The notes under the pieces are model-generated. The model was not told the origin of the DNA and searched no databases. It worked only from the letters and a program-made list of their open reading frames with translations. The position numbers were made by a program, and so were the translations under genes. Below are positions 15,915 through 30,862 of a DNA stretch of 64,000 bases, piece after piece. Source of the DNA: Ancylobacter sp. SL191 (GTDB lineage Bacteria > Pseudomonadota > Alphaproteobacteria > Rhizobiales > Xanthobacteraceae); the NCBI RefSeq assembly GCF_026625645.1, contig NZ_CP113056.1, positions 4,377,001 to 4,441,000 on the forward strand, given 5' to 3'. Each line of letters opens with the position of its first letter. The stretch's first letter is position 1.

Positions 15915-16361
15915 TCACGCCCCCGGAAAGGCGAAGGCGTAAGCCAGATGCCGGCGCCACCAGGGGGCGAGGAACACTTCGGCCACCGCCGCGCCGTCAT
16001 GGGCGTGGACCATGCGCGCGGCTTCCCCTCCCGCCACCAGGATCGCCGCGTGCTTGGCCGGCAGGTGCGCGCGCCAGCGGAACAGCAGCACATCGCCCGG
16101 CGCGATGGCCTCGAGGGGGACGGCGCGCATATGCCGGCCCGCCGCCCCGGCCAGCGTCTCGGCCTTGAGCGCCTCCGCCCAATCCGGCGTATAGGCCGGC
16201 AGGCCCTCCGGCTCGGCGCCGATCACCCCCCGCCACACCCCGCGGATGAGGCCGAGGCAGTCCGCCCCCTCCCCCTTGCAGGAGGCGCGGTGCAGATAGG
16301 GCGTGCCGATCCAGTCCCGCGCCTCGGTGACGAGGCGGGCGCGCACATCCTCGCTCGCCAT
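15915..16361 (-). CDS. NlpC/P60 peptidoglycan peptidase (g14)
   Basis: Tail-associated cell-wall peptidase of 148 residues. Catalytic Cys35 lies in EGADCLGL and His104 in PAKHAAILV, the NlpC/P60 pair. GGGAGGGTGAG immediately precedes the ATG at 16361. In RcGTA the homologue sits in the tail hub to open the recipient's cell wall. Its start overlaps or touches the g13 stop, so the genes are translationally coupled. Confidence 0.93.
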   Translation of the reverse strand: MASEDVRARLVTEARDWIGTPYLHRASCKGEGADCLGLIRGVWRGVIGAEPEGLPAYTPDWAEALKAETLAGAAGRHMRAVPLEAIAPGDVLLFRWRAHLPAKHAAILVAGGEAARMVHAHDGAAVAEVFLAPWWRRHLAYAFAFPGA

Positions 16362-16362
16362 C

Positions 16363-17223: not shown

Positions 17224-17233
17224 GACATGCTCC

Positions 17234-17875
17234 TCATGGCCGGATCTCCACCACCGGAATGCGCGGAATAGCCCCCGCCTCGAAGGCGGAGAGGTTCACT
17301 TCGAGGAAATCCGTGTCGAAGCGCACCGGCACGTCGAACAGGAAGCCGGCGCTGACGCTCGCCCCGGCAGGGGGCACATGGCCGGCGAGGAAGCCGACGA
17401 GGCCCGTGGACGTATCGACCGCGAAATGCGTGCCGGCGGTCTTCTCCACCCCGTTCACCGCCACCCGCACCGAGCCGGCGACCGGCTTCACGATGGGCCG
17501 GGCATAGGGCGCGTGCGCCCCGCCATAGGTCTTGATCAGCGGGAAGCTCGTCCGCACCCCGTCGCCGGTGCCGAGCGCCTGGTCGAACGGCGTCACGCTG
17601 GCGCCCGGCGCGGCGGAGGCGTGGTCCAGCCGGTCGCGCCAGCGGAAGCCATAGAGCCGGCCGCGCCGCTCCTCGAAGAAGGCGACGACGGCCTGCAACT
17701 GCGCCAGCGAGGTCACGCCATAGCCCGCGTCCCAGCGCCGGCGGGAATGCTTCAGCCGCGTGTTGCGCTCCTCGCGGCCGGTGAGCGTGGTGACAATCTC
17801 CGTCGCCCGCTCCGGCCCGCCCGCCGCGCCGAGCGCGATGTCGAGCGGGAACAGCGTCTCGTGAAAGGCAGGCAT
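17234..17875 (-). CDS. DUF2460 distal tail protein (g12)
   Basis: A 213-residue protein with DUF2460 features: MPAFHETLFPLDIALGAAGGPER at the N-terminus, then RRWDAGYGV near 46-54 and GRLYGFRWRD near 74-83. RcGTA g12 is the distal tail ring that joins tail tube and hub. The stop lies 10 bases before the g13 start, and the start directly abuts the tape-measure stop. Confidence 0.93.
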   Translation of the reverse strand: MPAFHETLFPLDIALGAAGGPERATEIVTTLTGREERNTRLKHSRRRWDAGYGVTSLAQLQAVVAFFEERRGRLYGFRWRDRLDHASAAPGASVTPFDQALGTGDGVRTSFPLIKTYGGAHAPYARPIVKPVAGSVRVAVNGVEKTAGTHFAVDTSTGLVGFLAGHVPPAGASVSAGFLFDVPVRFDTDFLEVNLSAFEAGAIPRIPVVEIRP

Positions 17876-18466
17876 CTAGAGGCTCCTTTCCCCGCGCGCC
17901 ACGGCGCGGGCGACGAGGCCGGAGAGATAGGCGTCGGAGCGGCGGAAGGAGGAGGCGTCAGGCGTCGCGACATTCACCGTCACGCTCACCGCCCGCCCGC
18001 CGGCCCCGGAGGCTACGCCCAGCGTGCCGTCCGGCCCGCGGCGCAGCGGCAGGATGGCTTCGGCGCCGGCTTCGCCCATCAGCCCGGTGCGGCCATTGGC
18101 GAGCGGGAAATAGGTCGGCGCCGCCACCACCCCGCCGCTGGCGAAGGGCACGACGCGCCCGCTCTGGAACGCCCCGCCCTGCGCGAAGCCGAGCGCGCCG
18201 CCCAGATTCTGGAACAGCCCGGAAACGCCCTGCTCGAGCGGGCGGAAGGCGGCGTTGATGGCGAGGCTGGAGAGGCGCGTGACCAGCGAGCGGAACACAT
18301 CGTCCGTCTCGCGCCCCTTCACCGCCGCGCCGGTGAGCGCATCGCCCACCACCCGCCCGAACCCCCGCGCCAGCCGCTCGGCCTCCGACAGCTCGCGGCG
18401 AAAGGCACTGGTATCGGCGGCAATGGCGACGGTGACGGTCTCGGCCTCAAAGCTGTCCTCGGCCAT
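17876..18466 (-). CDS. Tail tape measure protein (g11)
   Basis: A 196-residue protein starting MAEDSFEAETVTVAIAADTS. The C-terminal half has the GTA tape-measure signature FAQGGAFQ...GRTGLMGEAGAEAILPLRRGPDG (about 105-150). It is very short for a tape measure, so a short tail is implied, as in other GTAs. The ATG at 18466 is preceded by a GGAG-like site; longer upstream readings enter the repeat region. Confidence 0.9.
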   Translation of the reverse strand: MAEDSFEAETVTVAIAADTSAFRRELSEAERLARGFGRVVGDALTGAAVKGRETDDVFRSLVTRLSSLAINAAFRPLEQGVSGLFQNLGGALGFAQGGAFQSGRVVPFASGGVVAAPTYFPLANGRTGLMGEAGAEAILPLRRGPDGTLGVASGAGGRAVSVTVNVATPDASSFRRSDAYLSGLVARAVARGERSL

Positions 18467-18856
18467 GGGGGTCTCCGGGGTTAGGTGAGGATGGGGTGCC
18501 GGACGGCAGGAACCACCCGTACCCCGGACAAGCCGCGCGCCGCGCGGCGCAGAGCCGGGGCCCAGGGGAGAGTCTTCAGCTGAATTCGTGGCCCGCCTGC
18601 GCCGCCAGTGGGCCGTCATGGCCGGGCTTGACCCGGCCATCCACGTCTTCGGAGCGCCGGCGCGCGGCAGGCAAGTCGTGGATCCCCGGGTCAAGCCCCG
18701 GGGATGACGGTGCTTCATGCGTGAGCCCCGTTCCCCGGACGAGTTGCGTGGAGCGCGGCGATGATCCGGGGCCCAGGGAAAACTCTTTGGCCAAAGACTC
18801 CCCGCTGGATCCCGGCTCGCCTTTCGCTCACGCTTCAGGCGTCCGGGACACGGGGC
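18467..18856. repeat. Gene-free gap with composite palindromic repeats, copy 3
   Basis: A 390-base gap between tape measure and chaperone genes. It contains the CCCCGGAC-type motif twice (about 18515-18560 and 18727-18778), the two-arm repeat (about 18612-18708), and the TCCCGGCTCGCC...GGCGTCCGGGA motif (18811-18852). Nothing looks coding. Confidence 0.85.
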
Positions 18857-19072
18857 TCAATCGGGGAACCGCGCCATCAGCGCCGTGAGGCGCGCGCGGT
18901 CGAGCGGGGTGCGGGTGGGGCCGAGCACGGCCTCCATGGCGCGGGCGAGTTCGCGGGGCGTCATGCGCCAGAAAGCCTCGGACGAAAGAGCAAGGCGCCC
19001 GAGCCCGAACCCCATCGCCGCGCCCCAGGGAAACGGCTTGGAGGACTGGAACGGCGTAGGGCGCAGGCTCAG
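18857..19072 (-). CDS. Tail assembly chaperone, g10.1-like (probably made by -1 frameshift from g10)
   Basis: The frame encodes 71 residues after a -1 slip in the last codons of g10 and contains the small chaperone signature FPWGAAMGFGLGRLALSSEAFWRMTPREL. A separate start would be the ATG at 19015 (52 residues), but this would remove the conserved FPW segment, and I see no good ribosome site for it. The slip site C-CCT-TTC precedes the g10 stop directly, so a g10/g10.1 fusion of about 189 residues is the better explanation, like lambda G/GT. Confidence 0.75.
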   Translation of the reverse strand: MSLRPTPFQSSKPFPWGAAMGFGLGRLALSSEAFWRMTPRELARAMEAVLGPTRTPLDRARLTALMARFPD

Positions 19073-19425
19073 AAAGGGCGGGCGGGGTCTCCCGGCGCGG
19101 GCGCCGGCGGGGCCGTGTCCCCGCCAAAGGTCGCGGCGATGAGGTCGCCGACGAGGCGCGCGAAGCCGGCGGCACCGCCCGGCGTGGTCATGCGCGCCAC
19201 CTCCTCCTCGGTCACCGCCTCCCCCGCCCCGCGCAGGCCCGCCGCAATGAAGCGGATGGCGTCGCGCGCGGCGAGCCGGCCCTGGCCGAAGCGTTCGGTC
19301 AGCGCCACGAGGTCGTCCACCCCGAACGCCTCCTCCAGTTCCGCCAGCGCGCCCAGCGTCAGCACGAGGGTGCGGGTGCGCCCGTCGAGGTCGGCGGCGA
19401 TCTCGCCGCGATGTCGGTTGGCCAT
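19069..19425 (-). CDS. GTA tail assembly protein g10
   Basis: A 118-residue protein with the GTA g10/tail chaperone pattern: MANRHRGEIAADLDGRT...LTLGALAELEEAFGVDDL (1-43). The ATG at 19425 has GAGG in the preceding bases; a GTG four codons upstream is possible. The Pro/Ala-rich C-terminus (PPAPAPGDPARPF) ends with the slippery codons CCT TTC before TGA. The gene follows the tail tube gene with a short overlap or gap. Confidence 0.9.
   Translation of the reverse strand: MANRHRGEIAADLDGRTRTLVLTLGALAELEEAFGVDDLVALTERFGQGRLAARDAIRFIAAGLRGAGEAVTEEEVARMTTPGGAAGFARLVGDLIAATFGGDTAPPAPAPGDPARPF
19072..19078 (-). promoter_or_regulatory. Candidate -1 ribosomal frameshift heptamer (CCCTTTC)
   Basis: In the g10 reading frame the end is CGC CCT TTC TGA. 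The bases C-CCT-TTC fit the X-XXY-YYZ slippery pattern exactly, with the stop codon directly 3'. A one-base backward slip leads into the only frame that encodes the g10.1 chaperone domain. No downstream pseudoknot was worked out. Confidence 0.65.
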
Positions 19426-19433
19426 GGCGTACC

Positions 19434-19841
19434 TCACAGCGCCGCGAAGACGATTTCGCCGGCGCTTTCCAGCGTGATGTCGAAGGTCACCTCGCGGTCA
19501 TGCTCGGCGGCGATTTCCAGGCTGGTGATCTGGAACGAGCCGGTCAGCGTGCCGAAATCCGGCACCACCACCTGGCCCTGCCGGATCTCGCCGTCGAAGA
19601 AGCTCTGGCGGATCAGCGCGTCGGATGCCGCGTCCTTGAACAGGCCGGAGCCGGCGATCGAGGCGCGCTTCACGCCCGCCCCCGCGAGCAGCTCGCGCCA
19701 GCGCCCGGCGCTCTCGGCATGGGTGATGTCGACCGGCTCGGTGTTGAAAGCGATCTGCCGCGAGCGCAACCCTGCGACGGTGACGAGGGCGCTGCCGTCC
19801 GAGAGCTTGAGCAACAGATCCTTGCCCTTCTGCGCCGCCAT
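19434..19841 (-). CDS. Major tail tube protein, TP901-1 family (g9)
   Basis: A 135-residue tail tube subunit beginning MAAQKGKDLLLKLSDG, followed by VAGLRSRQIAFNTEPVDIT and a C-terminal TFDITLESAGEI strand, all typical of the TP901-1/GTA tail tube family. It sits between the tail terminator gene (224 bases upstream) and g10. Confidence 0.93.
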   Translation of the reverse strand: MAAQKGKDLLLKLSDGSALVTVAGLRSRQIAFNTEPVDITHAESAGRWRELLAGAGVKRASIAGSGLFKDAASDALIRQSFFDGEIRQGQVVVPDFGTLTGSFQITSLEIAAEHDREVTFDITLESAGEIVFAAL

Positions 19842-20065
19842 GGCGGGTCTCCTTGTCTGGCGTATGATGGTAATGGCGTGTATTCAGGGAGCGTTAACCC
19901 TGATGTGGCAGTTTAAGAGCGTGACGGCACTGAGACGCCGCCGCACAGCTTCGCGGCTTGATTCAACAAATCGCCGCAAGTGAGCTCATCTTCTGATTCA
20001 GCTTCACGCGGATTCATGAGTCGGCGGAATCGCTTGGCGCGGTTTCCTGACAGCTCCGGAAAACC

Positions 20066-20488
20066 TCAACCGGTTTCCGTCACCGCCCGCAGCCGCAGCA
20101 GCGCGCGATAGGTGCGCCCGCCCGCCTCGCGGCGAATCTCGGCGCTGGTCGCACGCAGATTGACCAGCCGGTGCCCGTCGAGCGTGAGCGGCGCATCATG
20201 CAGCACCGCCTGCACGAGATGGGCGAGATGATGCGCCTCCCCATGCCCGCCCTGGCGCGACCACACGTTGAGCGTCAGCCGATGCTCATGGCCGGTCTCG
20301 GTCGCGGTCGACCAGTCGATCACCTGCGCCTCGCCGAGCGTGACATAGGGAAATTCCGGCGTGGGCGGAGGCACGTCATGGATGCGCGCCCCGCCGAGCG
20401 CGGCGGTGAGCGCCGGGTCGGCGGCGAGCGCGGCATGGACAGCGGCGCGCAGCGCATTGGCGGGGCTCACCGGGGAACTCGCGCTCAT
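20066..20488 (-). CDS. DUF3168 tail terminator protein (g8)
   Basis: A 140-residue DUF3168 protein: [16 protein letters not shown] near the N-terminus, DVPPPTPEFPYVTLGE (about 38-53), and WSRQGGHGEAHHLAHLVQAVLH in the middle. RcGTA g8 completes the top of the tail. Start overlaps the 26-residue ORF upstream by 4 bases. Confidence 0.93.
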   Translation of the reverse strand: MSASSPVSPANALRAAVHAALAADPALTAALGGARIHDVPPPTPEFPYVTLGEAQVIDWSTATETGHEHRLTLNVWSRQGGHGEAHHLAHLVQAVLHDAPLTLDGHRLVNLRATSAEIRREAGGRTYRALLRLRAVTETG

Positions 20489-20565
20489 CGGCGCCCCCGC
20501 TGCGCGAGTTGCGCCAGCCGGCGGGCCAGCGCCGCGAGGCCCTTCATTCGCACCTCGAACTTCAT
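20485..20565 (-). CDS. 26-residue ORF, HK97 gp10-like N-terminal remnant
   Basis: A very short gene starting MKFEVRMKGLAALARRLAQL and ending RGRR. The start resembles HK97 gp10-family phage proteins (MKFEVRVKGL...), which are normally over 100 residues and lie between head closure and tail terminator genes, as this one does. It keeps a strong GAGGAGAA ribosome site and an ATGA overlap with g8, so it may survive as a translational coupler for g8. Remnant status is inference. Confidence 0.55.
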   Translation of the reverse strand: MKFEVRMKGLAALARRLAQLAQRGRR

Positions 20566-20575
20566 GGCGTTCTCC

Positions 20576-20902
20576 TCACGGGGTCTCTTCTCGACACTCG
20601 CAGACGAGGCGGCGCCCGCGCCCCTCGGGATCGCTCACCGCCTCGACGGTGAAGCGCCGCACGCCGAGCCGCAGCCGGTCGCCGGGCTGCACCGTGGCGG
20701 GGGCGCGGATCGTCACGCGATGGGCGAGCACGGCGCCCGGCCGGTCGGCGATCTCGGCGGGGTTCGCCACGGTCTCGACCGCGCCCCACAGCGCATCGAC
20801 CGCGAGAAACGTGCGGGTCACGCCGCCCTGCCCGTCCGGCGTCTCGAGCGGCGTCTCATGCACCAGCCGGTGGCGCAGCGCCGAAACAGGGAGCGCGCTC
20901 AT
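20576..20902 (-). CDS. Phage head closure / head-tail adaptor protein (g7)
   Basis: A 108-residue head closure protein with the pattern LRHRLVHETPLETPDGQGG at the N-terminus, WGAVETVANPAE near 40, and a GDRLRLGVRRFTVEAVSDPEGRGRRLVCECRE ending. This is the usual stopper/adaptor architecture. It overlaps the g6 stop by 4 bases. Confidence 0.92.
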   Translation of the reverse strand: MSALPVSALRHRLVHETPLETPDGQGGVTRTFLAVDALWGAVETVANPAEIADRPGAVLAHRVTIRAPATVQPGDRLRLGVRRFTVEAVSDPEGRGRRLVCECREETP

Positions 20903-21465
20903 AGCCGCGTCACCCGGAAGGGGGCGACGAGCGCATCGAGCCGGGCGGGAAAGGCCGCGCCGGCGCCCGGCACGTCGCGATGCTCGTAGAAATGCGCCAG
21001 CACCACCCGCACCGCCTCAATGAGCGGCGAGGGCACATGGTCGGCGCTCGGGCCATGCCCGGCGGTGATGTCCAACACGATGCCGGCGAGCGCCCGCCCC
21101 GGCGGCGGCACGGCGGCGCGGTCCACCCGGATCAGGCCGGGCAGGCGCGCGGTGTCGAGCGTGAAGGCACCCAGCGGCAGCGCCGTCTCTCCGCCGGCCG
21201 CGTCGATCAGCTTCACCGCGAGCAAGGCCCGCAGCGGGTTCACCGGCACCGGTATCAGGCCGGAGACCGGCCAGGCATCGCGGGTGAGGCGCCATGTCTG
21301 GTCGATCAGCACGCGCCGCGTCAGCGCCTCCACGGTGGCGCGGGCGCTGGTGAGGAGGGAGGCGATCAGCCCATCCTCCGCCTCATGGTCGACGCGCAGA
21401 TAGGCCTTGGCCTCGGCAAGCGTCAGCGGCTCCGCCGGCGGCCCGGCGAGAAGAACAGCGGGCAT
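20899..21465 (-). CDS. Head-tail connector protein, gp6-like (g6)
   Basis: A 188-residue connector: LTLAEAKAYLRVDHEAEDGLIASLLTSARATVEALTRR (14-52) is the helical phage gp6-like N-terminus, and the tail region has VRVVLAHFYEHRD. The ATG at 21465 gives MPAVLLAGPPAEPLTLAEAK; upstream codons lie in the repeat. In RcGTA the homologue binds the portal. It is separated from the capsid gene by the opposite-strand protease and a duplication. Confidence 0.92.
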   Translation of the reverse strand: MPAVLLAGPPAEPLTLAEAKAYLRVDHEAEDGLIASLLTSARATVEALTRRVLIDQTWRLTRDAWPVSGLIPVPVNPLRALLAVKLIDAAGGETALPLGAFTLDTARLPGLIRVDRAAVPPPGRALAGIVLDITAGHGPSADHVPSPLIEAVRVVLAHFYEHRDVPGAGAAFPARLDALVAPFRVTRL

Positions 21466-21796
21466 GGGTGCCTCGTGGTTGGGGGTGTGCGGGGGTGCGC
21501 CGCGAATGAGCTTCCCGCAGCGCAAAGAGGATCCGCCTCGCGACGTCATGGCCGTCCCCGGACTTGATCCGGGGATCAGGCCCGGCCATCCACGACTTGG
21601 CCGGGCGCGCCAGAAGGAAGTCGTGGATCCCCGGGCCAAGCCCGGGGATGACGGTGTGCCGGGGGATGACACCGTGACTGCGGGCGCAACGCGGGCGGAG
21701 CGGCCCGGCCGATTGACGGCGCCGGCCAGCGCGGCGACAAGGGCGCTGCTTGCGTGCCCCCTGCCCCGCTCCCCCGCCTCTCGCCGGAACAAGCCG
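21466..21796. repeat. Divergent gap with palindromic repeat, copy 4
   Basis: The 331 bases between the g6 start and the S1 protease start contain the two-arm repeat at about 21545-21655 in a GATCCGGGGATC variant. Any promoter for the protease must lie between 21655 and 21797; I see no clear consensus. Confidence 0.75.
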
Positions 21797-22516
21797 ATGC
21801 GCCGCCTCGTCCTCTCCCTCGCCGCCCTCGCCTGCCTCAGCCTGCCCGCGCGCGCCATTGTCGGCGGCGTGCCGGCGGATGCCGATCTGAAGGCGGAAAC
21901 GGCGATGATCGTCTCGACGCGCGGCGCCGCCTGCACCGGCGTGGTGCTGGCGCCGACGGTGCTGCTGACGGCGGCGCATTGCGTGCAGCCGGCGGCGGAT
22001 TACGCGGTGGCGGTGTTCGAGGCGAGCGGCCCGCGCCTCATCCCGGCGAGCCGCATCGCCGTGCATCCGAGCTTCGACCCGAACTCCTTCGCGACCCGCA
22101 GGCCGACACCGGACCTCGCTCTGGTGCGGCTGTCTGAGCCTCTGCCGGCGAGCTTCCGCCCGGCGACGCTGACGGCGGAGGTCGCGCTGCCGGCCCAGCG
22201 CACCGGCTTCGTCATCGCCGGCTTCGGGGTAACGAAGGACGGCGACGGCAAATCCGCCGGCACGCTGCGCATGGCGAGCCTGCCGAGCATCGGCACCACG
22301 GGCGGCATCATGGTCCGCCTGTCGGAGGGCGCCGCCAAGGGCGGCTGCACCGGCGACAGCGGCGGGCCGGTTCTGCTCGACGGCACGGTCGCCGGCATCA
22401 TCGGCTGGTCGACCGCCGCCGGCGGCGCGCGCGGCTGCGGCGGCGTCACCGGCGCGACGCTGATCGGCCCGCAACGCGCCTGGATCGACGCGACGGCGCG
22501 GGCGATGGGGCGGTAG
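21797..22516 (+). CDS. Secreted S1 (chymotrypsin-like) serine protease embedded in the GTA locus
   Basis: A 239-residue exported protease on the strand opposite to all GTA genes. The signal peptide (1-20) is followed directly by IVGG, the usual mature N-terminus of S1 enzymes. The catalytic triad is His61 (LTAAHC), Asp106 (PDLALV) and Ser188 (CTGDSGGP). The residue six before the serine (primary pocket) appears to be Gly182, not Asp, so trypsin-like specificity is not implied. The last 116 bases are duplicated at 23041-23156. It may be a chromosomal gene inserted between capsid and connector genes or a cargo gene; no structural role is known. Confidence 0.9.
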   Translation: MRRLVLSLAALACLSLPARAIVGGVPADADLKAETAMIVSTRGAACTGVVLAPTVLLTAAHCVQPAADYAVAVFEASGPRLIPASRIAVHPSFDPNSFATRRPTPDLALVRLSEPLPASFRPATLTAEVALPAQRTGFVIAGFGVTKDGDGKSAGTLRMASLPSIGTTGGIMVRLSEGAAKGGCTGDSGGPVLLDGTVAGIIGWSTAAGGARGCGGVTGATLIGPQRAWIDATARAMGR

Positions 22517-22539
22517 GCGGCGACCTGAGTTAGCAGGCC

Positions 22540-22728
22540 GTCATGGCCGTCCCCGGACTTGATCCGGGGATCAGCCCGGCCATCCACGACTTGGCGGGGC
22601 GCGCGAGGAAGACGTGGATCCCCGGGTCAAGCCCGGGGATGACGGTGTGACGGGATGACGGGGGATTGGGGGCCCGTTCCCCGGACACGTTGCGCGCAGC
22701 GCAACGATGATCCGGGGCCCAGGAGAGA
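22540..22728. repeat. Palindromic intergenic repeats, copy 5 (also at 23180-23368)
   Basis: The two-arm repeat (22540-22645) and the CCCCGGAC...GATCCGGGG motif (22678-22722) lie between the converging protease and capsid 3' ends and are carried along in the duplication. Confidence 0.85.
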
Positions 22729-22804
22729 CTCTTCGGCTGTCTCTCCACCGCTGCGTAGGCGCCCCTCACCCCTCGCCCCGACGGGGAGAGGGGGCGAGCA
22801 CCGC

Positions 22805-23040
22805 TCACGCCGCGAACTTCAGCAGCTTGATGGCGTCGAAATCCTGCACGCCGCCGCCGACGCGCTTGGTGGTGTAGAACAGCACATAGGGCTTGGCCGA
22901 ATAGGGGTCGCGCAGCACCCGCACGCCGGCGCGGTCGACCACCAGATAGCCCCGGCGGAAATCGCCGAAGGCGATGGCGAGCGCGTTGGCCGCCGGGTTC
23001 GGCATGTCCTCCGCCTCGAACACCGGGAAGCCGAGCAGGC
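22805..23040 (-). pseudogene. Truncated capsid 3' fragment from the tandem duplication
   Basis: Encodes the last 78 residues of the HK97-type capsid protein and its stop, identical to the intact gene end at 23445-23680. The fragment has no start of its own; the frame continues upstream into antisense protease sequence. It is a duplication by-product. Confidence 0.93.
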
Positions 23041-23156
23041 TCGGCTGGTCGACCGCCGCCGGCGGCGCCCGCGGCTGCGGCGGCGTCACCGGCGCGACGC
23101 TGATCGGCCCGCAACGCGCCTGGATCGACGCGACGGCGCGGGCGATGGGGCGGTAG
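23041..23156 (+). pseudogene. S1 protease 3' fragment from the tandem duplication
   Basis: The C-terminal 37 residues of the S1 protease plus the stop codon, without the triad. It is joined in frame to antisense capsid sequence upstream, so an accidental 60-residue fusion could be read, but nothing suggests it is functional. Confidence 0.93.
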
Positions 23157-23680
23157 GCGGCGACCTGAGTTAGCAGGCCGTCATGGCCGTCCCCGGACTT
23201 GATCCGGGGATCAGCCCGGCCATCCACGACTTGGCGGGGCGCGCGAGGAAGACGTGGATCCCCGGGTCAAGCCCGGGGATGACGGTGTGACGGGATGACG
23301 GGGGATTGGGGGCCCGTTCCCCGGACACGTTGCGCGCAGCGCAACGATGATCCGGGGCCCAGGAGAGACTCTTCGGCTGTCTCTCCACCGCTGCGTAGGC
23401 GCCCCTCACCCCTCGCCCCGACGGGGAGAGGGGGCGAGCACCGCTCACGCCGCGAACTTCAGCAGCTTGATGGCGTCGAAATCCTGCACGCCGCCGCCGA
23501 CGCGCTTGGTGGTGTAGAACAGCACATAGGGCTTGGCCGAATAGGGGTCGCGCAGCACCCGCACGCCGGCGCGGTCGACCACCAGATAGCCCCGGCGGAA
23601 ATCGCCGAAGGCGATGGCGAGCGCGTTGGCCGCCGGGTTCGGCATGTCCTCCGCCTCGAACACCGGGAAGCCGAGCAGGC
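23041..23680. repeat. 640-bp tandem duplication, unit 2
   Basis: Second copy of the unit described at 22401. Its right border lies within the capsid gene, where GCTCGGCTGG continues into the intact coding sequence instead of the protease. Confidence 0.97.
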
Positions 23681-24707
23681 TCGGCTGGGCGCCCGGCGCG
23701 GTCGGCGCGGCCCACAGATACTGGCCGTTCTCGTCCTTCAGCTTGCGCACCGCGCCCTGCGTGCGCCGGCTCATCAGGAAGCTGCCATTCTGGCGGTAGC
23801 CGGCCTTCAGCGCATAGACCAGATCGACCAGCGGATCGGAAGGGTTGGCGGCGGGGAAGTCGCCGGCCGCGCCGGTGGCAGTGAAGCCGAGCTTGCCCCA
23901 CACCCACGCGCTCTCCGCCACCGTGTCATAGGCGAGGAACCCCTTGGGCTTGCCGACGCCGTCGCCGGTGACGAAGGCCGTGCCCTCCTGGCTGGCGAAG
24001 GCGGCCTCCACCTCGATGGCCAGCCACTCGTCGATGTTCACGGCGGAATCGTCCAGTAGCGTCTGCGTCGCCGCCGGCATGGCGTAGAGCTCCATCGCCG
24101 GGAAGGCGAGCTCGTCCAGCACCGGGCTGGTGGTCTGGGCGCGCGCGGCGGTCTCCGCCACCCAGCCGACCGCCGGGCCGGAGGTCATGAAGGGCTTCTT
24201 GTAGGTGCCCTGCGAGATGGTGCGCACATCGGCCAGCGCGCGGATCGGCGAGAGCGCGGCGAGGCGCTTGCCGATCTCGCGCTCGGTCTCCACCGGCACG
24301 GTATAGCCGCCATCGGCGCCGATGCCGGCGGAGAGCGCCTTGGCCTCCAGCCGCTTCAGCCCGGCCGCCTCGCCGGTGCGCACATAGGTGTCGAACGCCG
24401 CCTTGTGCTCGCGGGCGGCGAGGTCGGTGAAAGCGTCGCCCCCACCCAGCGCCGGGCGGCGGGCTTTGAGCACCAGCTCGTCGATCAGCGCCTTCTGCGT
24501 GTCGAGCACGGCGTTGATGCGCTCCACCTTGTCGGCGGTGATCGGGTCGCCGCCGCGCCGCTCCAGCTCGCCGAGGCGCTGGTCATTGGCATCCTTGAAC
24601 GCCTCGAAGGCGCTCATGAACTCCTCGAAGGCGGCGGAGACCTCCGGGCCGGCGGACTTGGTTTCGGGCGCAGTCTGGGACGTGGCGGGCAGGGACATGG
24701 CGGTCAT
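23445..24707 (-). CDS. HK97-family major capsid protein (g5)
   Basis: A 420-residue capsid protein. The N-terminal scaffold-like delta domain (about 20-95, predicted coiled coil) precedes the HK97 fold, recognisable by IGADGGYTVPVETEREI (about 128-145), VAETAARAQTT, PAATQTLLDDSAVNIDEWLA and the C-terminal VFEAEDMPNPAANALAIAFGD. In GTAs the delta domain is removed by the g4 protease. The gene is intact although its 3' 236 bases are duplicated downstream. Confidence 0.96.
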   Translation of the reverse strand: MTAMSLPATSQTAPETKSAGPEVSAAFEEFMSAFEAFKDANDQRLGELERRGGDPITADKVERINAVLDTQKALIDELVLKARRPALGGGDAFTDLAAREHKAAFDTYVRTGEAAGLKRLEAKALSAGIGADGGYTVPVETEREIGKRLAALSPIRALADVRTISQGTYKKPFMTSGPAVGWVAETAARAQTTSPVLDELAFPAMELYAMPAATQTLLDDSAVNIDEWLAIEVEAAFASQEGTAFVTGDGVGKPKGFLAYDTVAESAWVWGKLGFTATGAAGDFPAANPSDPLVDLVYALKAGYRQNGSFLMSRRTQGAVRKLKDENGQYLWAAPTAPGAQPSLLGFPVFEAEDMPNPAANALAIAFGDFRRGYLVVDRAGVRVLRDPYSAKPYVLFYTTKRVGGGVQDFDAIKLLKFAA

Positions 24708-25084
24708 GGGTGTGTCCTGTTGAGGGGATGGGGTGTGGAGACCTCCCCGCCGTCATCCCGGCCCCTCGGGTCTTGCCTTCGGCAAGCCCAAGGGCAGGCT
24801 CCGCGAAGCGGAGAGCCGGGATCGTCCGCCGCGCTCGTCCGGCACGTGAGGAGGGAGGAGCGGCACGCGATCCCGGATCGGCCTGCGGCCGTCCGGGATG
24901 ACGGTGTGAGGGGATGACGGCGTGACGGGGTTGGCGGTGTGACTGCGGAAACCCGCTCCCCGGACAAGCCACGCGCAGCGTGGCGCAGAGCCGGGGCCGA
25001 GGAGAAACTCTTCGGCAAAAGACTCGTCCGCTGGATCCCGGCTCGCCTTCCGCCCGCGCTTCAGGCGTCCGGGACACGGGGCAC
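24708..25084. repeat. Gene-free gap with palindromic repeats, copy 6
   Basis: The 377 bases between capsid and prohead protease genes contain a different repeat (GTCATCCCGG...GCCGGGATCG and GATCCCGGATCGGCCTGCGGCCGTCCGGGATGACGG, about 24751-24903), the CCCCGGACAAGC...AGCCGGGGCC motif (24957-24998) and the TCCCGGCTCGCC...GGCGTCCGGGA motif (25036-25076). Capsid expression therefore has to pass this region or start within it. Confidence 0.8.
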
Positions 25085-25654
25085 CTACCCCGCCGGCGAT
25101 AGCGCCGGCAGCGCGCGCAGGCGGCGGGCGCCGCGGCGGATGGTGGCGGCGAGGCGGCCGGCGCTCCAGCCGCCCTTCACTGCGGCGATGCGGGCTTCGG
25201 GCTGCATGGGGAAGGTGACGATGGAAATCTCCCACAGATCGATGCGGGAGAGCCGGCGGATGCGCGTGCGCGGCTCGCTGCGGCCTTCGACAGTGCGAAA
25301 GCCGATGGACAGGCCGTCAATCGCCCCGGCGCGCATCAGCGCCAGCACCTCGCGGGCGCGGGCGACTTCCAGCGTCAGCCGGCCGCGCACCTTGAGCCCC
25401 AGCGCATCCTCGCGCAGCTCCTCCCAGATGCCGATCGGCTCGGCCGGGTCGTGCTGGAACAGCAGGCGCACGCCGCCGGTGCCGCGCTCATTCAGCGAGG
25501 CGGCGAAGGCGCCGGGCAGGATGAGATCGCGACCGAGATCGACCCGGCCGAACAGCGCGGCATAGCCCTCGAAGGTGCCGTCCTCAGCGATGGTGGCCAG
25601 CCGGCCGGCCGCCTTGATCTCCAGGGGCGTGCCTGCGGATGCCGGCGCGCTCAT
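25085..25654 (-). CDS. HK97-family prohead protease (g4)
   Basis: Capsid maturation protease of 189 residues. FEGYAALFGRVDLGRDLILPGAF (28-50) is the family signature; His68 in LFQHDPAEPIG and Ser116 in GLSIGFR are the catalytic residues. The start ATG overlaps the 58-residue ORF upstream by 4 bases. It would process the capsid delta domain. Confidence 0.94.
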   Translation of the reverse strand: MSAPASAGTPLEIKAAGRLATIAEDGTFEGYAALFGRVDLGRDLILPGAFAASLNERGTGGVRLLFQHDPAEPIGIWEELREDALGLKVRGRLTLEVARAREVLALMRAGAIDGLSIGFRTVEGRSEPRTRIRRLSRIDLWEISIVTFPMQPEARIAAVKGGWSAGRLAATIRRGARRLRALPALSPAG

Positions 25655-25827
25655 GCGCCGTCTCCGCGCGGGCGGCGGGTGGCGGCGGCGCGCTCCAGCC
25701 GGCCGAGCGTCTGGCCGAATTCGCGAAACACCTGCGGCGCCTGCCCGGCGCGGCTGGAGGTCGGCAGGGAGACAGGCAAGCGCACGCGGCCGGGCAGGAA
25801 GGCCCGGATTCGCGGGGTGGAGGTCAT
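25651..25827 (-). CDS. 58-residue hypothetical protein between g3.5 and g4
   Basis: An Arg-rich small protein (MTSTPRIRAFLPGRVRL..., then QAPQVFREFGQTLGRLER) with ATGA overlaps at both ends: with the g3.5-like gene upstream and the prohead protease downstream. The tight coupling argues that it is translated. No family recognised. Confidence 0.6.
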   Translation of the reverse strand: MTSTPRIRAFLPGRVRLPVSLPTSSRAGQAPQVFREFGQTLGRLERAAATRRPRGDGA

Positions 25828-26012
25828 GGTTCGTCTCCGAACTGGGCGTTGAAGCGCGCGATCTCGCGCACGAAGTCGTCAAAGCGGCGCACCGCGCGGG
25901 CAAGCTCGCGCACCGCCCCCGCCGCCAGCGCCGAGGCGCCCAGCGCCCACATCAAGAGCGCGAGATGGGCGAGGTCCGCCCTGGCCGCGAAGGCGGTGAT
26001 GAGCGTCTCCAT
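25824..26012 (-). CDS. Small membrane protein, GTA g3.5-like
   Basis: A 62-residue protein with a hydrophobic helix (about 14-35, LAHLALLMWALGASALAAGAV) and an amphipathic C-terminus (ARAVRRFDDFVREIARFNAQF). RcGTA has a small gene, g3.5, in the same place between portal and prohead protease. Function unknown. Confidence 0.75.
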   Translation of the reverse strand: METLITAFAARADLAHLALLMWALGASALAAGAVRELARAVRRFDDFVREIARFNAQFGDEP

Positions 26013-26097
26013 GGGGGTCTCCTCGGGGGCGTTTCCGGGGGCGTCTTCTTGGGGCTTGAGCTTGGGGGGCGTTTCCTCGGGGCCGCACCTTTCCGGT

Positions 26098-26126
26098 CGT
26101 CATGGCCGGGCTTGACCCGAGCATGA
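26098..26126. repeat. Half palindromic repeat, copy 7
   Basis: Only the first arm of the two-arm repeat is present (CGTCATGGCCGGGCTTGACC, then CGAGCATG). The second arm is missing where lower-GC sequence begins, so this may mark one edge of imported DNA. Confidence 0.6.
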
Positions 26127-26304
26127 GGGAGCGTCTTGGCACACCGCCATGCTTAGGTGCCGGCGTCCGCGCTAGCCTCGAAGCACTCTGTCGCCGCGTC
26201 AGCAGCTTAGATGGGCGATCTCAGCATTGTCGGCGAAGTCGGCAATAAGCTTGCCCACACCCTCTCGCCACCTTAAGTTGCACCTATAAGTCAGGAGGGA
26301 TGCC

Positions 26305-26502
26305 ATGATGCCGAAGCTCAACGATGAGGCGATCAGGGACTACTGTGACCGAATCGTTGAACGCCTCAACAAATCGGATTTAAATGGTTGGGAAATTGGA
26401 TTTCTTGAAGATGTTAAATTGAAAATTGAGTCAAAACAGCAGCTTACAGATAAGCAAGAACAGCATTTACTGAAACTATTGCCCAGCAAGGATAACCGCT
26501 AA
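26305..26502 (+). CDS. AT-rich 65-residue hypothetical protein
   Basis: A small helical, charged protein (MMPKLNDEAIRDYCDRIVERL..., ending LTDKQEQHLLKLLPSKDNR). AGGAGG is located 6 bases before the ATG. Codon use (AAA, ATT, TTA, GAT rich) is very unlike the surrounding GC-rich genes, pointing to recent acquisition. It converges on the portal-gene fragment, its stop overlapping the fragment's stop on the other strand. It may be part of the insertion that carries the methyltransferase. No domain recognised. Confidence 0.75.
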   Translation: MMPKLNDEAIRDYCDRIVERLNKSDLNGWEIGFLEDVKLKIESKQQLTDKQEQHLLKLLPSKDNR

Positions 26503-26786
26503 GGTCGCACCCCGTAGCCCACCGCCTGGCGTTTTTCGTCCTCGGTGAGGAAGCTCGCCTCGTCACCTGCCGCCACAGCGCCTCGCGCTCGCCGTGGAGC
26601 GCGGAGACGGCGTCGAGGTCGGGCTCCAGCGTCAGGCCGCTGCCGCCGAAGGCGGGGGCGAGCCAGCCGCAGAGATCATGGCCGATGCGGCGGGCGAGCG
26701 GCAGGATGGCCTGGCGCCACAGCACGCGGCTGGCCTCGGCGTAATTGGCATAGGTCGCGTCGCCGGGAATGCCGAGCAGCATGGGC
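26499..26786 (-). pseudogene. Duplicated 3' fragment of the portal gene
   Basis: Positions 26506-26786 match 27581-27862 (portal 3' end) with four substitutions and one missing T, which shifts the frame. The fragment lacks a start. The stop TAG (26499-26501) follows one codon after the end of homology. Together with the intact copy it brackets the methyltransferase gene. Confidence 0.93.
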
Positions 26787-26849
26787 ACCGTGCTTTGTCG
26801 TCATCGTCCAAGGAAAAAGCCAGCCGGACGACGCGATACGCTCATCAGC

Positions 26850-27569
26850 TCACAGAATTGCATGTTCCAGGTGAATGCGCTGGCAAGCAATTTCGAAATA
26901 TTCTCTGCTGGACTCAATGCCGATGTATGTCAAACTGGCCCGTAAACAGGCGACACCGATGGTTCCCGAGCCCATGAAAGGATCGAGGATTGGCCCTTCC
27001 ATGACTTGGAGTAGGTCAGACATGAGTTCCACCGGCTTACCTGCCATATGAAGTCTGGGACTAGGTGGCCGGCATCTAATGACACCAGGTGCACTAGATC
27101 CTGCTAATGCTCGTGGGCCATTGGTCGCCCACACCGCATATTCGGCTTGGTTGCGATATCTTCCGCGCTGTGGTCGGGCACATTCAGTCTTGTCCCAAGG
27201 AACGATACCGCGCCAAACCCATCCTGCAGATTGTATAGCATCGGTTGTCGTGGGTAATTGGCGCCAATCTGAAAAAACGCAACATAGCGCCGATGGGGGT
27301 ACTTTTCGTCGCGCTTGTCGTAGCCACTGGCTTGACCAAGCAAAATAAGAGCGTTGATCTCGGCTGTCGCCATCGAATTCCGGATACTTAACCTTCTGAA
27401 ATGAATATTTCCGACTTGTTGAAATATCGCGATTGGATCGCTGAGAATTTCCACTGGAGTAAGGGGGATCGGTTAGGATTGCCCCACCAGACAGATCGGG
27501 GACATTGGCCAGCAAGTCGAGGGCATCCCCATAATAGAGGGTAGCGTTCCCGATAACTTCGATGTGCAT
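26850..27569 (-). CDS. DNA adenine-N6 methyltransferase, beta-class order
   Basis: A 239-residue SAM-dependent methyltransferase. Motif IV DPPY lies at residues 34-37 and the SAM-binding motif I DPFMGSGT at 196-203, so catalytic region comes before the cofactor region, as in beta-class N6-adenine or N4-cytosine enzymes of phages. The DPPY form suggests adenine. No restriction gene is nearby. It starts 4 bases after the portal stop, so it is placed to be cotranscribed and coupled with GTA genes. Base composition is lower in GC than neighbours, and the gene is bracketed by the portal duplication. Confidence 0.9.
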   Translation of the reverse strand: MHIEVIGNATLYYGDALDLLANVPDLSGGAILTDPPYSSGNSQRSNRDISTSRKYSFQKVKYPEFDGDSRDQRSYFAWSSQWLRQARRKVPPSALCCVFSDWRQLPTTTDAIQSAGWVWRGIVPWDKTECARPQRGRYRNQAEYAVWATNGPRALAGSSAPGVIRCRPPSPRLHMAGKPVELMSDLLQVMEGPILDPFMGSGTIGVACLRASLTYIGIESSREYFEIACQRIHLEHAIL

Positions 27570-27573
27570 AGCT

Positions 27574-28740
27574 CTACCCCCGCACCCCGTAGCCCACCGC
27601 CTGGCGTTTTTCGTCCTCGGTGAGGAAGCTCGCCTCGTTCACCTGCCGCCACAGCGCCTCGCGCTCGCCGTGGAGCGCGGAGACGGCGTCGAGGTCGGGC
27701 TCCAGCGTCAGGCCGCTGCCGCCGAAGGCGGGGGCGAGCCAGCCGCAGAGATCATGGCCGATGCGGCGGGCGAGCGGCAGGATGGCCTGGCGCCACAGCA
27801 CCCGGCTGGCTTCCGCGTAATTGGCATAGGTCGCGTCGCCGGGAATACCGAGCAGCATGGGCGGCACGCCGAAGGCGAGCGCGATCTCGCGCGCCGCGGC
27901 GTTCTTCGCTTCCAGAAAATCCATGTCCTTCGGCGAGAGCGACAAGGGCCGCCAGTCGAGCCCGCCCTCCAAGAGCAGCGGGCGCCCGGCATTGGCGGTG
28001 CCGGAGAAATTCGCCTCCAGCTCCTCCTTCAGCCGGTCGAACTGCTCGTCCGACAGATTGCCCGCCCCGGCATAGACCAGCGCGCCGGAGGGCCGGGCGG
28101 CATTGTCGAGCAGCGCCTTGTTCCAGGCGCCGGCGGCGTTGTGCAGATCGAGCGCGGTGAGCGCGGCTTCCAGCGGCGGGGCGCCGTAATGATCGTCCAG
28201 CGGGTTGAACAGCGCGATATGGCGGATCGGCGGCACCTCGCCGCTCTGCGCGAAGCGCACGCTGCGCCCGCCGGCGCTGTATTCATAAGCCTCCGGCCAG
28301 CCATCCGCGCCGGGCACGACGCGCATCCGGTCCGGGCGCAGCACATGGAGTTCGCGCGGCGTGCCGGAAAGGCTGACCGCCTCGACATAGGCATTGCCGG
28401 CGATCAGCAGATGCGCCGCCACCGCCTCCAGCAGTTCCGGCCCGGAGAGTTTTCCGCCCGGCCGGGCCATGAGGGCGATCAGCGGGTGATCGTCGATCTC
28501 GCGCCCGCTTTCGCTGAGGATGAAGCGCGTCTCGGCCACCCCTTGCGCGATCAGCCGCACGCAGCGATGCGCGACGGCGTTACGCTGATAGCCCTCGCGG
28601 GCCAGCGCGCCATAATCGCGCGGCGTCCATTGCGGCCGGCTCCCGGCGAGGAACGCCACCAGCGGGTGGGTCCGCGAGGCCTTGGCCTCCGGCGCGCCGG
28701 GCGCCGCCGGGCGATGGCGGGTGAAGGGAAAGAGCTTCAT
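27574..28740 (-). CDS. Portal protein (g3)
   Basis: A 388-residue HK97-type portal protein: YQRNAVAHRCVRLIAQGVAE (about 50-70), LIAGNAYVEA, ELHVLRPDRM, HIALFNPLDDHYGAPPLEAA and EIALAFGVPPMLLGIPGD are classic portal motifs. The ATG at 28740 gives MKLFPFTRH. The last 92 codons exist a second time at 26506-26786; this copy is the intact one but could be the imported one. Confidence 0.95.
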   Translation of the reverse strand: MKLFPFTRHRPAAPGAPEAKASRTHPLVAFLAGSRPQWTPRDYGALAREGYQRNAVAHRCVRLIAQGVAETRFILSESGREIDDHPLIALMARPGGKLSGPELLEAVAAHLLIAGNAYVEAVSLSGTPRELHVLRPDRMRVVPGADGWPEAYEYSAGGRSVRFAQSGEVPPIRHIALFNPLDDHYGAPPLEAALTALDLHNAAGAWNKALLDNAARPSGALVYAGAGNLSDEQFDRLKEELEANFSGTANAGRPLLLEGGLDWRPLSLSPKDMDFLEAKNAAAREIALAFGVPPMLLGIPGDATYANYAEASRVLWRQAILPLARRIGHDLCGWLAPAFGGSGLTLEPDLDAVSALHGEREALWRQVNEASFLTEDEKRQAVGYGVRG

Positions 28741-28816
28741 CGGGGGCTCCGGTTGCAAAGGGGGGCGGCAGTAAATGGGGGGCTAACGGCCGCTGGAGCG
28801 CCCCGCCATCAGGCGG

Positions 28817-28925
28817 TCATGGCCGGGCTTGGGCCGGCCATCCACGACTTGGGCCGAGCGTGCCAGAAAGAAGTCGTGGATCCCCGGGCTGATCCTCGGA
28901 TCAAGTCCGGGCACGGGGATGACGG
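28817..28925. repeat. Palindromic intergenic repeat, copy 8
   Basis: Two-arm repeat (TGGCCGGGCTTGGGCCGGCCA arm, then GGATCCCCGGGCTGATCC and TCAAGTCCGGGCACGGGGATG) between portal and large terminase genes. The second arm is rearranged compared with other copies. Confidence 0.75.
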
Positions 28926-28958
28926 CGCGTGGGGCGGGACACGCGCCCCCTCACCCCC

Positions 28959-30329
28959 TCACACCCGCCGCACGCGGGGCGCGGACTGGGGGCCGAGGGC
29001 GAGCGCCGTCACCGCCCAGACCAGCGCGTCGAGCCGGTCCGGGGAACGGCCATTGGAGAGGCCTTCGGGGGCGAAGTCGCACATCTCGTCCTCCAGCGCC
29101 GGGAACACCCCGGCATGACGCACGCGGCACTGCTCGTAGAGCGCGGCGACGGGCTCGGCGCGCAGCCATTTTCCGCGCGTCGCCCGCACCTCGCGCACCG
29201 GCACGGCGGGGTCGATGCCGGCGAGGATGGTGCGCACCATCTCCCCGCCCTGGTTGATCTCCACCACGACCCGATCGGCCTTGAGGCGATGAAACAGCCC
29301 GATCGCCCGCGCGCCCCAGGCGGTCGGCGTCAGGCCCTGCGCGCTCTCATCGGCCAGCACATGGACGATGCCGTCGCGGTCGATCCCCGCCGCGACCAGC
29401 CCGCAGGCATCGGCCGTGCGGCGCGAGGACGCCGGCGGATCGACCGCCACGACGATGCGCACCAGCTTTTCGCGGGTCATCTCGGGCGCCGCGTCTTCCC
29501 GCGCGGCTTCCAGCGCCGCCCGGTTCCACAGCGCGTCCGGCCGGTCCTCGATCAGCTCGCCGGCGAGTTCCTGCCGGCCGAGCCGCGTGCCGGCATAGCG
29601 CCCGACCACCGTGTCGAGGAAGCTCGGGGCGAGATGGGCGGCGTTCTCCGCCGTGCCCATGCGGGTGATGGCGGTGCGCGGATCGGCCAGCAGCGCGCGG
29701 ATCAGCGCGGTCGGGCGTGGGGTCGTGGTCACCATCTGGCGCGGCCGGGCGCCGAGGCGCAGGCCGAATTGCAGCATGTCGAAGGCGGCTTGCGCGTGCC
29801 GCCATTTGGCGAGTTCATCGCACCAGGCGGCGTCGAATTGCGGGCCGCGCAGCGCCTCCGGGTCTTCGGCGGAAAAGCCCTGCGCCACCGCGCCATTCGG
29901 CCATTCGAGGCGCCGGCGCGTCGGCTCCCAGCGCGGGCGCTCACCGCGCGGGTGAATGGCGAGAAGGCCGGAGACGCCCTCCACCATCACCTCGCGCACA
30001 TCGTTGAAGGTCTCGGCAACAAGGGCGATGCGCCCGGCCTTCGGCCCGGCCCGGCCGTGAATGAGGGCGCGCACCCATTCGGCGCCCGCCCGCGTCTTGC
30101 CGGCGCCGCGCCCGCCCAGCACCAGCCAGGTCAGCCAGTCGCCCCCGCCCTGCGCGCAGGCAGGCGGGTGCTGCGCCGGCCGGCCGATCAGCGGCCAGTG
30201 GTGCAGCAGCCAGCGGCAGGCGGCGGGATCGAGCGCGGCCAGCGCCTCAGGGAGCCTTCCCGCCTGCCAGCACGCGCTCAAGCGTCGCGCCAAGCTCGCG
30301 TCGGAAGGCGTCGGCATCGCGTCCGGCAT
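28959..30329 (-). CDS. Terminase large subunit (g2)
   Basis: Packaging motor of 456 residues. Walker A GGRGAGKT at 72-79, Walker B FDAAWCDE near 165-172, motif III TTTPRPT, and the C-terminal nuclease start VAVDPPAS (Asp). The start overlaps the small terminase gene by about 80 bases out of frame, with GAGGAGGACGAGG before the ATG. Headful packaging of host DNA is known for RcGTA; not deducible here. Confidence 0.95.
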   Translation of the reverse strand: MPDAMPTPSDASLARRLSACWQAGRLPEALAALDPAACRWLLHHWPLIGRPAQHPPACAQGGGDWLTWLVLGGRGAGKTRAGAEWVRALIHGRAGPKAGRIALVAETFNDVREVMVEGVSGLLAIHPRGERPRWEPTRRRLEWPNGAVAQGFSAEDPEALRGPQFDAAWCDELAKWRHAQAAFDMLQFGLRLGARPRQMVTTTPRPTALIRALLADPRTAITRMGTAENAAHLAPSFLDTVVGRYAGTRLGRQELAGELIEDRPDALWNRAALEAAREDAAPEMTREKLVRIVVAVDPPASSRRTADACGLVAAGIDRDGIVHVLADESAQGLTPTAWGARAIGLFHRLKADRVVVEINQGGEMVRTILAGIDPAVPVREVRATRGKWLRAEPVAALYEQCRVRHAGVFPALEDEMCDFAPEGLSNGRSPDRLDALVWAVTALALGPQSAPRVRRV

Positions 30330-30798
30330 CCTCGTCCTCCTCTTCCGGCTCCTGGCGGGCGAGCGCGGCGAGTTCGCGCAGCGAGCGCACGAGAATGGCC
30401 AGCGTGCGCGCGGCCCGCTCGGCCTGGGTGACGCCGTTTGCGGCGAGCCCGGCCCGCGCGACGATGCGCTCGACCGCGCCGATCTCAGCCTCGATGCGGG
30501 CGACCAGCCGGGTGATGAGATCCCCGCGCAGCGCCCCGCCCGCCGTGGGAAGGGCGGGCACCAGGGGCGGTGCCGCCGCGGTGGGCGCCGGGGCGAGCGC
30601 GGGAGCGGGGTCGGCGTCGGGCGGGGGAATGCGCCCGGCCCGCCGGGTCCAGCCCCAGCGGGGAATGCGTGTGTTTAAGGTCGATTTCGAGATGCCGAGC
30701 ATGTCGGCGATCTGCTGCACCGGCACATTGCTGCGCTCATAAAGCCGGCGCGCCTCATCGAGCGCCTCCGGCGTGATGACATGAGCAGGAACCGACAT
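30247..30798 (-). CDS. HTH small terminase-like protein (g1 position)
   Basis: A 183-residue protein whose N-terminus has a helix-turn-helix (EARRLYERSNVPVQQIADMLGISKSTLNTRIPRWGW, about 15-50), then an Ala/Pro-rich linker (60-95) and a helical C-terminal domain. Position before TerL and the HTH suit a TerS DNA-recognition subunit. The ATG at 30798 has AGGAGG in front. It would be the first gene of the GTA transcript. Confidence 0.82.
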   Translation of the reverse strand: MSVPAHVITPEALDEARRLYERSNVPVQQIADMLGISKSTLNTRIPRWGWTRRAGRIPPPDADPAPALAPAPTAAAPPLVPALPTAGGALRGDLITRLVARIEAEIGAVERIVARAGLAANGVTQAERAARTLAILVRSLRELAALARQEPEEEDEDAGRDADAFRRELGATLERVLAGGKAP

Positions 30799-30862
30799 GG
30801 CGCCTCCTGAGGGTGGGGTGAGGACGGGGCCACCACAGGGGCGGCGGGAACGGTCGGGCATG

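Follow-up and report, generated by a model that had tools for sequence, protein, structure and literature searches.

A DNA methyltransferase gene between two portal gene ends in the gene transfer agent cluster of Ancylobacter sp. SL191 and a probable cargo slot behind the portal

Gene transfer agents (GTAs), particles of domesticated viruses, are usually described as stripped devices that package random host DNA. The genome of Ancylobacter sp. SL191 raises the question of how a GTA gene cluster comes to hold a DNA methyltransferase gene directly behind its portal gene, enclosed by two copies of the portal 3′ end. We addressed this question in a window of 64,000 nucleotides (the whole stretch analysed; contig NZ_CP113056.1, positions 4,377,001 to 4,441,000) of this genome (G000), a complete 4.65-Mb single contig. 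On its minus strand, the window contains a cluster (11688–30861) that encodes, by Pfam and NCBIfam matches, a helix-turn-helix protein that is a putative small terminase, TerL, portal, protease, capsid, tail proteins, and a GTA_TIM protein. Our favoured explanation, which we consider probable, is that a cargo slot extends from the portal gene (g3) to the g3.5 and protease genes and is filled by displacement of the portal 3′ end, with the methyltransferase as one of its occupants. The cluster itself is classed as RcGTA-like on the basis of gene order and GTA-specific genes: GTA_TIM (5.4e-130), Rcc01698_C, and a GTA-gp10 tail family occur in head-tail order, and an HK97-type portal, capsid, and protease are present.

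The portal junction in Ancylobacter

The carrier of the slot is an intact HK97-type portal gene (27574–28743, minus strand; PF04860, 2.3e-83), the proximal, in-frame 3′ end of which spans 27581–27862 on the same strand. Four nucleotides past its stop codon (27570–27573, minus strand), a gap that shrinks to two nucleotides in G009 and three in G019, begins the gene for an orphan beta-class N6/N4 DNA methyltransferase of 239 amino acids (26850–27569, minus strand; PF01555, E 1.1e-24). Its GC content is 0.52 and its GC content at third codon positions 0.46, compared with about 0.9 for the latter in the GTA genes. Sixty-three nucleotides separate the methyltransferase from a second, displaced portal 3′ end of 281 bp (26506–26786, minus strand), which is frameshifted and one base shorter than the proximal copy. 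The two copies align at 98.2% identity over 282 columns, with four mismatches and one 1-base gap. An initial annotation of the window, made by a model from the DNA letters, had described both copies and their differences correctly, and was equally right in placing the methyltransferase start four bases past the portal stop. All four substitutions fall within the first 61 of the 281 bases (chance 0.002; for a span of at most 45 bases anywhere, 0.015), which suggests a recombination mosaic rather than simple decay.

Absent from that annotation was a low-GC segment at about 26130–26505 (left edge approximate, no strand assigned), which begins exactly where the similarity of the distal copy stops. 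It contains an open reading frame (ORF) of 65 amino acids on the plus strand (26305–26502, GC 0.42); a protein search with this frame recovered itself alone, and Pfam, PHROG, and NCBIfam scans were blank. In Ancylobacter, the slot ends at a conserved ORF of 60 amino acids in the g3.5 position (25830–26012, minus strand). No second match to 26100–27900 was found in the complete genome at E 0.001, with 40 of 223 candidates scored. A scan of 25900–28000 returned two promoter-like sites where 0.8 were expected and one terminator-like site where 1.6 were expected, nothing clearly above chance.

Comparison with related loci shows, at the level of DNA alignment, that this junction is occupied variably. 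Portals of nearly full length were present in 25 Ancylobacter loci; the methyltransferase stands at the portal junction in three of these, namely G000, G009 (A. polymorphus DSM 2457), and G019 (Xanthobacteraceae bacterium 501b), and is missing from the other 22. G015, the nearest relative of G000 with a portal 97% identical, has an ordinary GC-rich spacer behind the portal. In G009, the portal is followed after two nucleotides by the methyltransferase, then by AT-rich DNA and about 170 bp of portal 3′ end that continue into spacer. This distal end uses the same stop codon as the methyltransferase-free sister G002, and the end and its spacer align with those of G002 at 91.5% over 470 bp; the alignment therefore shows the distal copy to be the native portal end, and the proximal end would belong to the newcomer. 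The initial annotation had proposed that sister loci free of the insert would define its ends. In G019, the order is portal, three nucleotides, methyltransferase, AT-rich DNA, and g3.5 ORF, with no portal-end copy to compare. The same annotation had tied the methyltransferase strictly to the duplication, a link to be broken by any related genome with the gene and no duplicated end; G019 is such a genome. It does not refute displacement as such, because simple double-crossover replacement leaves no trace. A repeat of 98% identity is also open to misassembly, but SL191 is a complete single-contig genome and a second species, A. polymorphus, has a similar architecture, so that an assembly artefact is extremely unlikely.

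Own portal-end copies of at least 100 bp were found in two of the three methyltransferase loci and in none of 27 others (Fisher 0.007, post hoc). Including a shorter copy in G035, the lengths are 282, 170, and 46 bp; matches of 59 bp at 76% and of 27 bp in G006, and of 29 bp in G048, were left uncounted as weak. Further low-GC inserts lie at the same junction in G029 and G024. A second kind of cargo behind the portal is an antisense ORF of about 102–115 amino acids in G029, G024, and G008 (L019, L024, L023), with a remnant discerned by eye in G027 (L020). It has at least 19 relatives, none of named function, the best outside Ancylobacter being 61% identical in Chelativorans, and a Pfam scan of one representative was without match.

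The portal ends and the methyltransferases differ in age. Within a genome, the two portal-end copies are 98.6% (G000) and 98.8% (G009, over 160 bp) identical, compared with 83–85% between the two genomes. Identity of the nearest sister to the two copies is lower than that between them: 96.8 and 97.5% for G015 against G000, and 95.7 and 97.5% for G002 against G009. The three GTA-locus methyltransferases, by comparison, share 65–71% DNA identity. At fourfold-degenerate sites they differ by 0.66–0.70, which is saturated, while the portals of the same genomes differ by 0.15–0.23; values of −1 for synonymous divergence (dS) were taken as saturation, and hence no dN/dS ratio is given. By these measures the copies of the portal end appear local and young, METHYLTRANSFERASES not. 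Since the methyltransferases are saturated, the portals are not, and the copies are nearer to each other than to sisters, the captures look recent and separate, and we read them as drawn from a diverse pool into one junction. Co-inheritance of the methyltransferase with the portal was rejected on the same synonymous divergence (0.66–0.70 vs 0.15–0.23).

The grouping of the copies also bears on the insertion that the initial annotation had proposed, in which an element brought a replacement portal end. Comparison of the two 3′ ends grouped them by genome rather than by position, and a fixed, element-borne portal end was rejected for this reason. What stands of that proposal is the presence of foreign DNA behind the portal and a methyltransferase-side end that would have arrived with, or been rebuilt by, the event.

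Cargo modules in related genera

A portal search of 391 family genomes extended the survey beyond Ancylobacter. At E 1e-90 it yielded 165 matches, of which 139 fell outside this genus, and for 100 of these 139 loci the DNA downstream of the portal was analysed over as much as 5 kb. None of the 100 stretches contains a relative of the G000 methyltransferase, and seven contain copies of their own portal end (L094, L104, L107, L109, L111, L171, L188). Downstream of cargo, a displaced 3′ end of the carrier gene is accordingly seen in G000, G009, and 7 of 100 family loci, and not in G019. In 6 of 130 loci, the portal is extended beyond its usual end by a fused linker, QPRVPAGNPDGGQWT, and a variable domain. 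All six belong to genus g47 and comprise every g47 genome with a portal match (G075 of this genus has none). Five of the six cargo-fused loci have displaced portal ends, compared with 2 of 94 others (Fisher 1.6e-6, although the related genomes are not independent and the true strength is lower).

In this genus, alignments show modules that appear displaced in one genome and primary in another. The displaced module of L104 resembles the primary module of L107 (84% identity for the domain, 92% for the partner gene), the second module of L111 resembles the primary one of L109 (51% and 64%), and the third module of L111 resembles the primary one of L094 (65%, with the partner alike by eye). The displaced end of L107 shares 88.0% identity with the L109 portal, more than the 86.3% that it shares with the portal of L107. 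This demonstration is one for g47, and Ancylobacter stands outside it.

The variable domains have a toxin-like character in part. A CdiA-CT RNase A-like fold (PF18431) was matched in L094 (2e-12) and in the third L111 module (1e-8), and the other g47 fusions gave a Pfam match to the portal part only, although some of their variable domains may contain HNH-like or JAB-like motifs. A small gene lies behind the fused portal in five of the six loci, none being seen in L103. These partner genes are DUF2019 proteins in L171 (two) and L189, and the remaining ones scanned had no Pfam match. The linker pattern itself was found on the forward strand of 40 of 130 loci (39 genomes, L031 and L148 coming from the same one), in none on the reverse strand, and in 0 of 130 shuffled loci. 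Its position precedes the protease in 13 loci, falls between the protease and capsid genes in 16, and follows the capsid start in five, counts in which double counting is possible; placement was unassigned in 12 loci, among them L111 with its fused portal. We conclude from these matches that the portal–protease interval of related genera can carry cargo resembling polymorphic toxins, often with a small partner gene, either fused to the portal or as a separate frame. Cargo of this kind is toxin-like by homology only, and in Ancylobacter the cargo is a methyltransferase rather than a toxin–immunity pair. The interval between protease and capsid, where linker-bearing toxin-like frames occur in 16 loci (e.g. 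L102, L139, L166), constitutes a second cargo slot; a linker frame in L112 was not counted, being a chance frame, nor was a linker in L136 positioned after the capsid start.

Membership of these loci in GTA clusters was examined through GTA_TIM in eight loci with cargo or end copies. In G130, G151, and G158, the gene shares contig and strand with the portal at a distance of about 12–15 kb, and in G227 it is located on a different contig; G200, G185, G248, and G169 gave no GTA_TIM match.

The nearest parallel in phages is provided by the MuF polymorphic toxins of temperate phages, described as toxin-like domains on a head-module protein encoded directly behind the portal (PMC5576092, PMC3482391). 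The present cargo differs in that it belongs to a GTA cluster and is carried either by the portal protein or in a frame of its own that has a QPR..G..GG.W-type linker. MuF models gave no match in the Pfam-scanned cargo frames, and no other MuF search was made.

Recombination at the slot and rival origins

Under the favoured explanation, incoming DNA with a portal end and new cargo would pair with the resident portal gene, its other end would join without homology, and the resident portal end and former cargo would be left downstream. We infer that recombination of this type shaped G000: the newcomer would be a phage-type orphan DNA methyltransferase, which would have displaced the frameshifted portal end together with the low-GC segment, the former cargo. 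The pattern seen in the g47 modules is one that, in type VI secretion system (T6SS) arrays, has been explained by Kirchberger and colleagues through homology-facilitated illegitimate recombination, which others are said to propose for Rhs (PMC5361080). As described in that account, Rhs and T6SS effector–immunity arrays share with the present loci a conserved carrier whose 3′ region can be exchanged, the persistence of old ends and partner genes downstream, and homology on one side only (PMC5361080). Unlike in those arrays, the carrier here is a GTA portal gene, and the Ancylobacter cargo is a methyltransferase with its own gene past the portal stop.

Several observations weigh against this explanation. 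Both portal-end copies are host-like in G000 and G009, so that a distant donor needs either a crossover near the portal stop or the joining of sister chromatids, each hypothetical. Alternative pairing of chromatids could account for both copies being host-like, and is described for pneumococcal transformation, where the duplications that it produces are large (PMC3784515). The distal copy of G000 has no native spacer behind it, and G019 has no distal copy at all. Within g47, L104, L109, and L111 have displaced ends that resemble the portal of the same genome most closely, and the two modules within L104 (48% identical) and within L171 (52%) are alleles of one family for which local duplication is possible. 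The linker was not found in the 25 Ancylobacter loci within the 1.5 kb examined, a distance reaching the protease start in 20 of them, and the lack of a GTA_TIM match in G169 concerns a one-contig genome of the fused genus. Partial tandem duplications are found elsewhere in GTA clusters (G000 capsid, G015 g6, G011), and in G035 (L063) the 46-bp portal-end copy is separated from the other copy by a short repeat-like stretch where no gene was seen, a displacement-like trace without cargo. Duplication alone is therefore not specific.

These duplications favour a different account, in which two unrelated events coincided: the portal end was duplicated locally in tandem, and the methyltransferase gene was inserted independently of this. 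The presence of the methyltransferase without duplication in G019, and of a 46-bp duplication without methyltransferase in G035, fits this account. However, the methyltransferase lies between the copies in both genomes with long copies, and related genera pair displaced ends with modules that are primary elsewhere. We consider such a coincidence unlikely.

It is more unlikely still that a replacement end was supplied by the site-specific integration of an element into the portal 3′ end, and that the methyltransferase segment is the decayed remnant of this element. The precedent is e14, which replaces the 3′ end of icd upon insertion and leaves the old end as a pseudogene of 163 bp (PMC6379469). 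The resemblance to our loci lies in this retained end; the difference is that e14 is a prophage integrating site-specifically with an element-supplied end (PMC6379469). Such elements do seem to strike GTA genes, as in terL of G009 and the portal of G055. At the G000 junction, by contrast, an integrase with a short exact core at both junctions was not found, nor was any recombinase frame seen between the copies. In addition, the copies group by genome with no shared element-specific end, and their lengths of 282, 170, and 46 bp are unequal.

The two disrupted genes are observations in their own right. In A. polymorphus, the parts of the split terL lie on two contigs, L089 (contig C3) and L057 (C5), and the split is accompanied by an exact repeat of 19 bp. 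Next to the break, an ORF matches phage integrase weakly and below the cut-off (E 0.0043), so that the GTA terminase gene may serve a prophage as attachment site. The portal of G055 is split by about 13 kb (L064 3548–16783), starting with a serine recombinase of 522 amino acids (PF00239, PF07508). In G028 (L060 3585–4436), the portal is without the part matching residues 140–232, and the GTA is probably inactive as a result.

Beyond the slot, G000 encodes the prohead protease (25085–25654, minus strand; PF04586, 6.3e-35) and the major capsid protein (23445–24707, minus strand; PF05065, 2.4e-89). Between capsid and g6, on the opposite strand, lies a trypsin-like protease gene (21665–22516, plus strand), a relative of which holds this position in nine of nine fetched clusters that reach there, other genera included (L063, L066). 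The capsid 3′ end and the neighbouring trypsin gene 3′ end are spanned by a 640-bp tandem duplication, 22401–23068 and 23041–23708 (668-bp copies, 99.1%); the interval between capsid and trypsin genes is far shorter in G015 than in G000. G015 has a 467-bp partial tandem duplication at the g6 5′ end (L056 8934–9864), and in G011 a unit of about 210 bp occurs three times downstream of the capsid gene (L059 7303–8120).

Origin and role of the methyltransferase

Matches to METHYLTRANSFERASE at E 1e-40 were obtained in 18 of 391 family genomes, three of them the GTA loci. The other 15 relatives are located elsewhere and are 57–64% identical over most of their length (up to 69% for partial ones). 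They belong to the same N6/N4 family, and in the six loci judged by eye the surroundings are phage-type, with phage tail-type frames near several. Directly upstream of 10 of the 15, and in G053 and G006 (12 genomes, one being the query source), lies a Com-like zinc-ribbon frame, which matched PF10122 in the one scanned. We take this arrangement to be a Mu com-mom-like position. The GTA copies are distinct from these Com-linked genes: no Com zinc ribbon was found upstream of the methyltransferase at any of the three GTA loci, their GC content is 0.50–0.53 compared with 0.65–0.70 at six Com-linked loci, and in a tree of 62 rows they form one clade with a metagenomic protein, P0003 (support 100/99). 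The rows of this tree were P0001–P0060, of 215–300 amino acids, plus two more, with P0004 exchanged for the full-length G019 protein.

The G000 enzyme has a PF01555 domain with DPPY ahead of FMGSG. The best match in the PDB is a DpnA-named adenine methyltransferase, 5hek (E 4e-19), and among the PADLOC matches listed (25 of 34), nearly all are to type II or orphan methyltransferase models. No partner nuclease was found among the neighbours scanned, the portal and the 65-amino acid ORF. The matches in IMG/VR were A. polymorphus again, as L086 (identical to L032), and two methyltransferases at 56%, the surrounding DNA of which was examined without match to GTA portal, TerL, or capsid. The three GTA-locus enzymes have been kept at 71–76% identity despite saturated synonymous sites, a pattern that indicates a working enzyme, though the selection may predate its arrival.

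Because its start lies four nucleotides past the portal stop, the methyltransferase is expected to be translated from the portal transcript, and the two genes would be co-expressed. The portal end may now act as a translational lead. Since it should be read from the portal transcript, METHYLTRANSFERASE most likely modifies DNA in GTA-producing cells. The initial annotation went further, proposing that the enzyme marks packaged DNA and so shields it from recipient restriction, as phage modification enzymes do. This proposal draws on the placement of the gene for expression with head genes, on the orphan nature and conservation of the enzyme, and on the Com-like frame that precedes most of its nearest other relatives, as in phage modification genes. 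However, Com was not found at the GTA loci themselves, the gene is rare, being missing from most Ancylobacter loci, and G009 retains it though its terL is split. Furthermore, GTA DNA enters recipients by the competence system: RcGTA DNA is described as reaching the periplasm, from which competence proteins import it (PMC7296036), and in natural transformation one strand is degraded during import (PMC8579336). We therefore regard marking of packaged DNA as rather unlikely.

Extra phage genes have been reported previously in RcGTA-like clusters: R. palustris BisB5 and DX-1 have a DNA-cytosine methylase, and in Agrobacterium and a Rhizobium a lysozyme gene separates terL from the portal gene (PMC11409702). 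Displaced portal ends, module exchange, and the position of the methylase do not feature in the available part of that account (PMC11409702). Among the open-licence papers listed, judged by titles and abstract openings, none was found to describe a GTA with displaced portal ends or with polymorphic effectors, which is weak evidence of novelty, and none joined Ancylobacter with a gene transfer agent.

A broader interpretation may be drawn, which we offer as possible though still on the doubtful side: alphaproteobacterial GTAs would carry swappable effectors on or beside the portal, at the point of DNA exit, perhaps delivered with the DNA, and the slot would diversify by portal-anchored 3′-end displacement, so that a GTA would serve kin discrimination as well as the exchange of genes. 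The effectors would be toxin-like domains with partner genes in some Xanthobacteraceae genera, and a DNA methyltransferase in some Ancylobacter. The displacement could itself be driven by GTA-mediated recombination. A cargo slot that recurs and is fused or coupled to the portal, with toxin-like modules in some related genera and a DNA-modifying enzyme in G000, would mean that GTA clusters evolve by module exchange in the manner of bacterial weapon systems. The old question of what producers gain from GTAs could then be addressed by analysis of particle contents, by assays of toxicity and immunity, and by methylomes.

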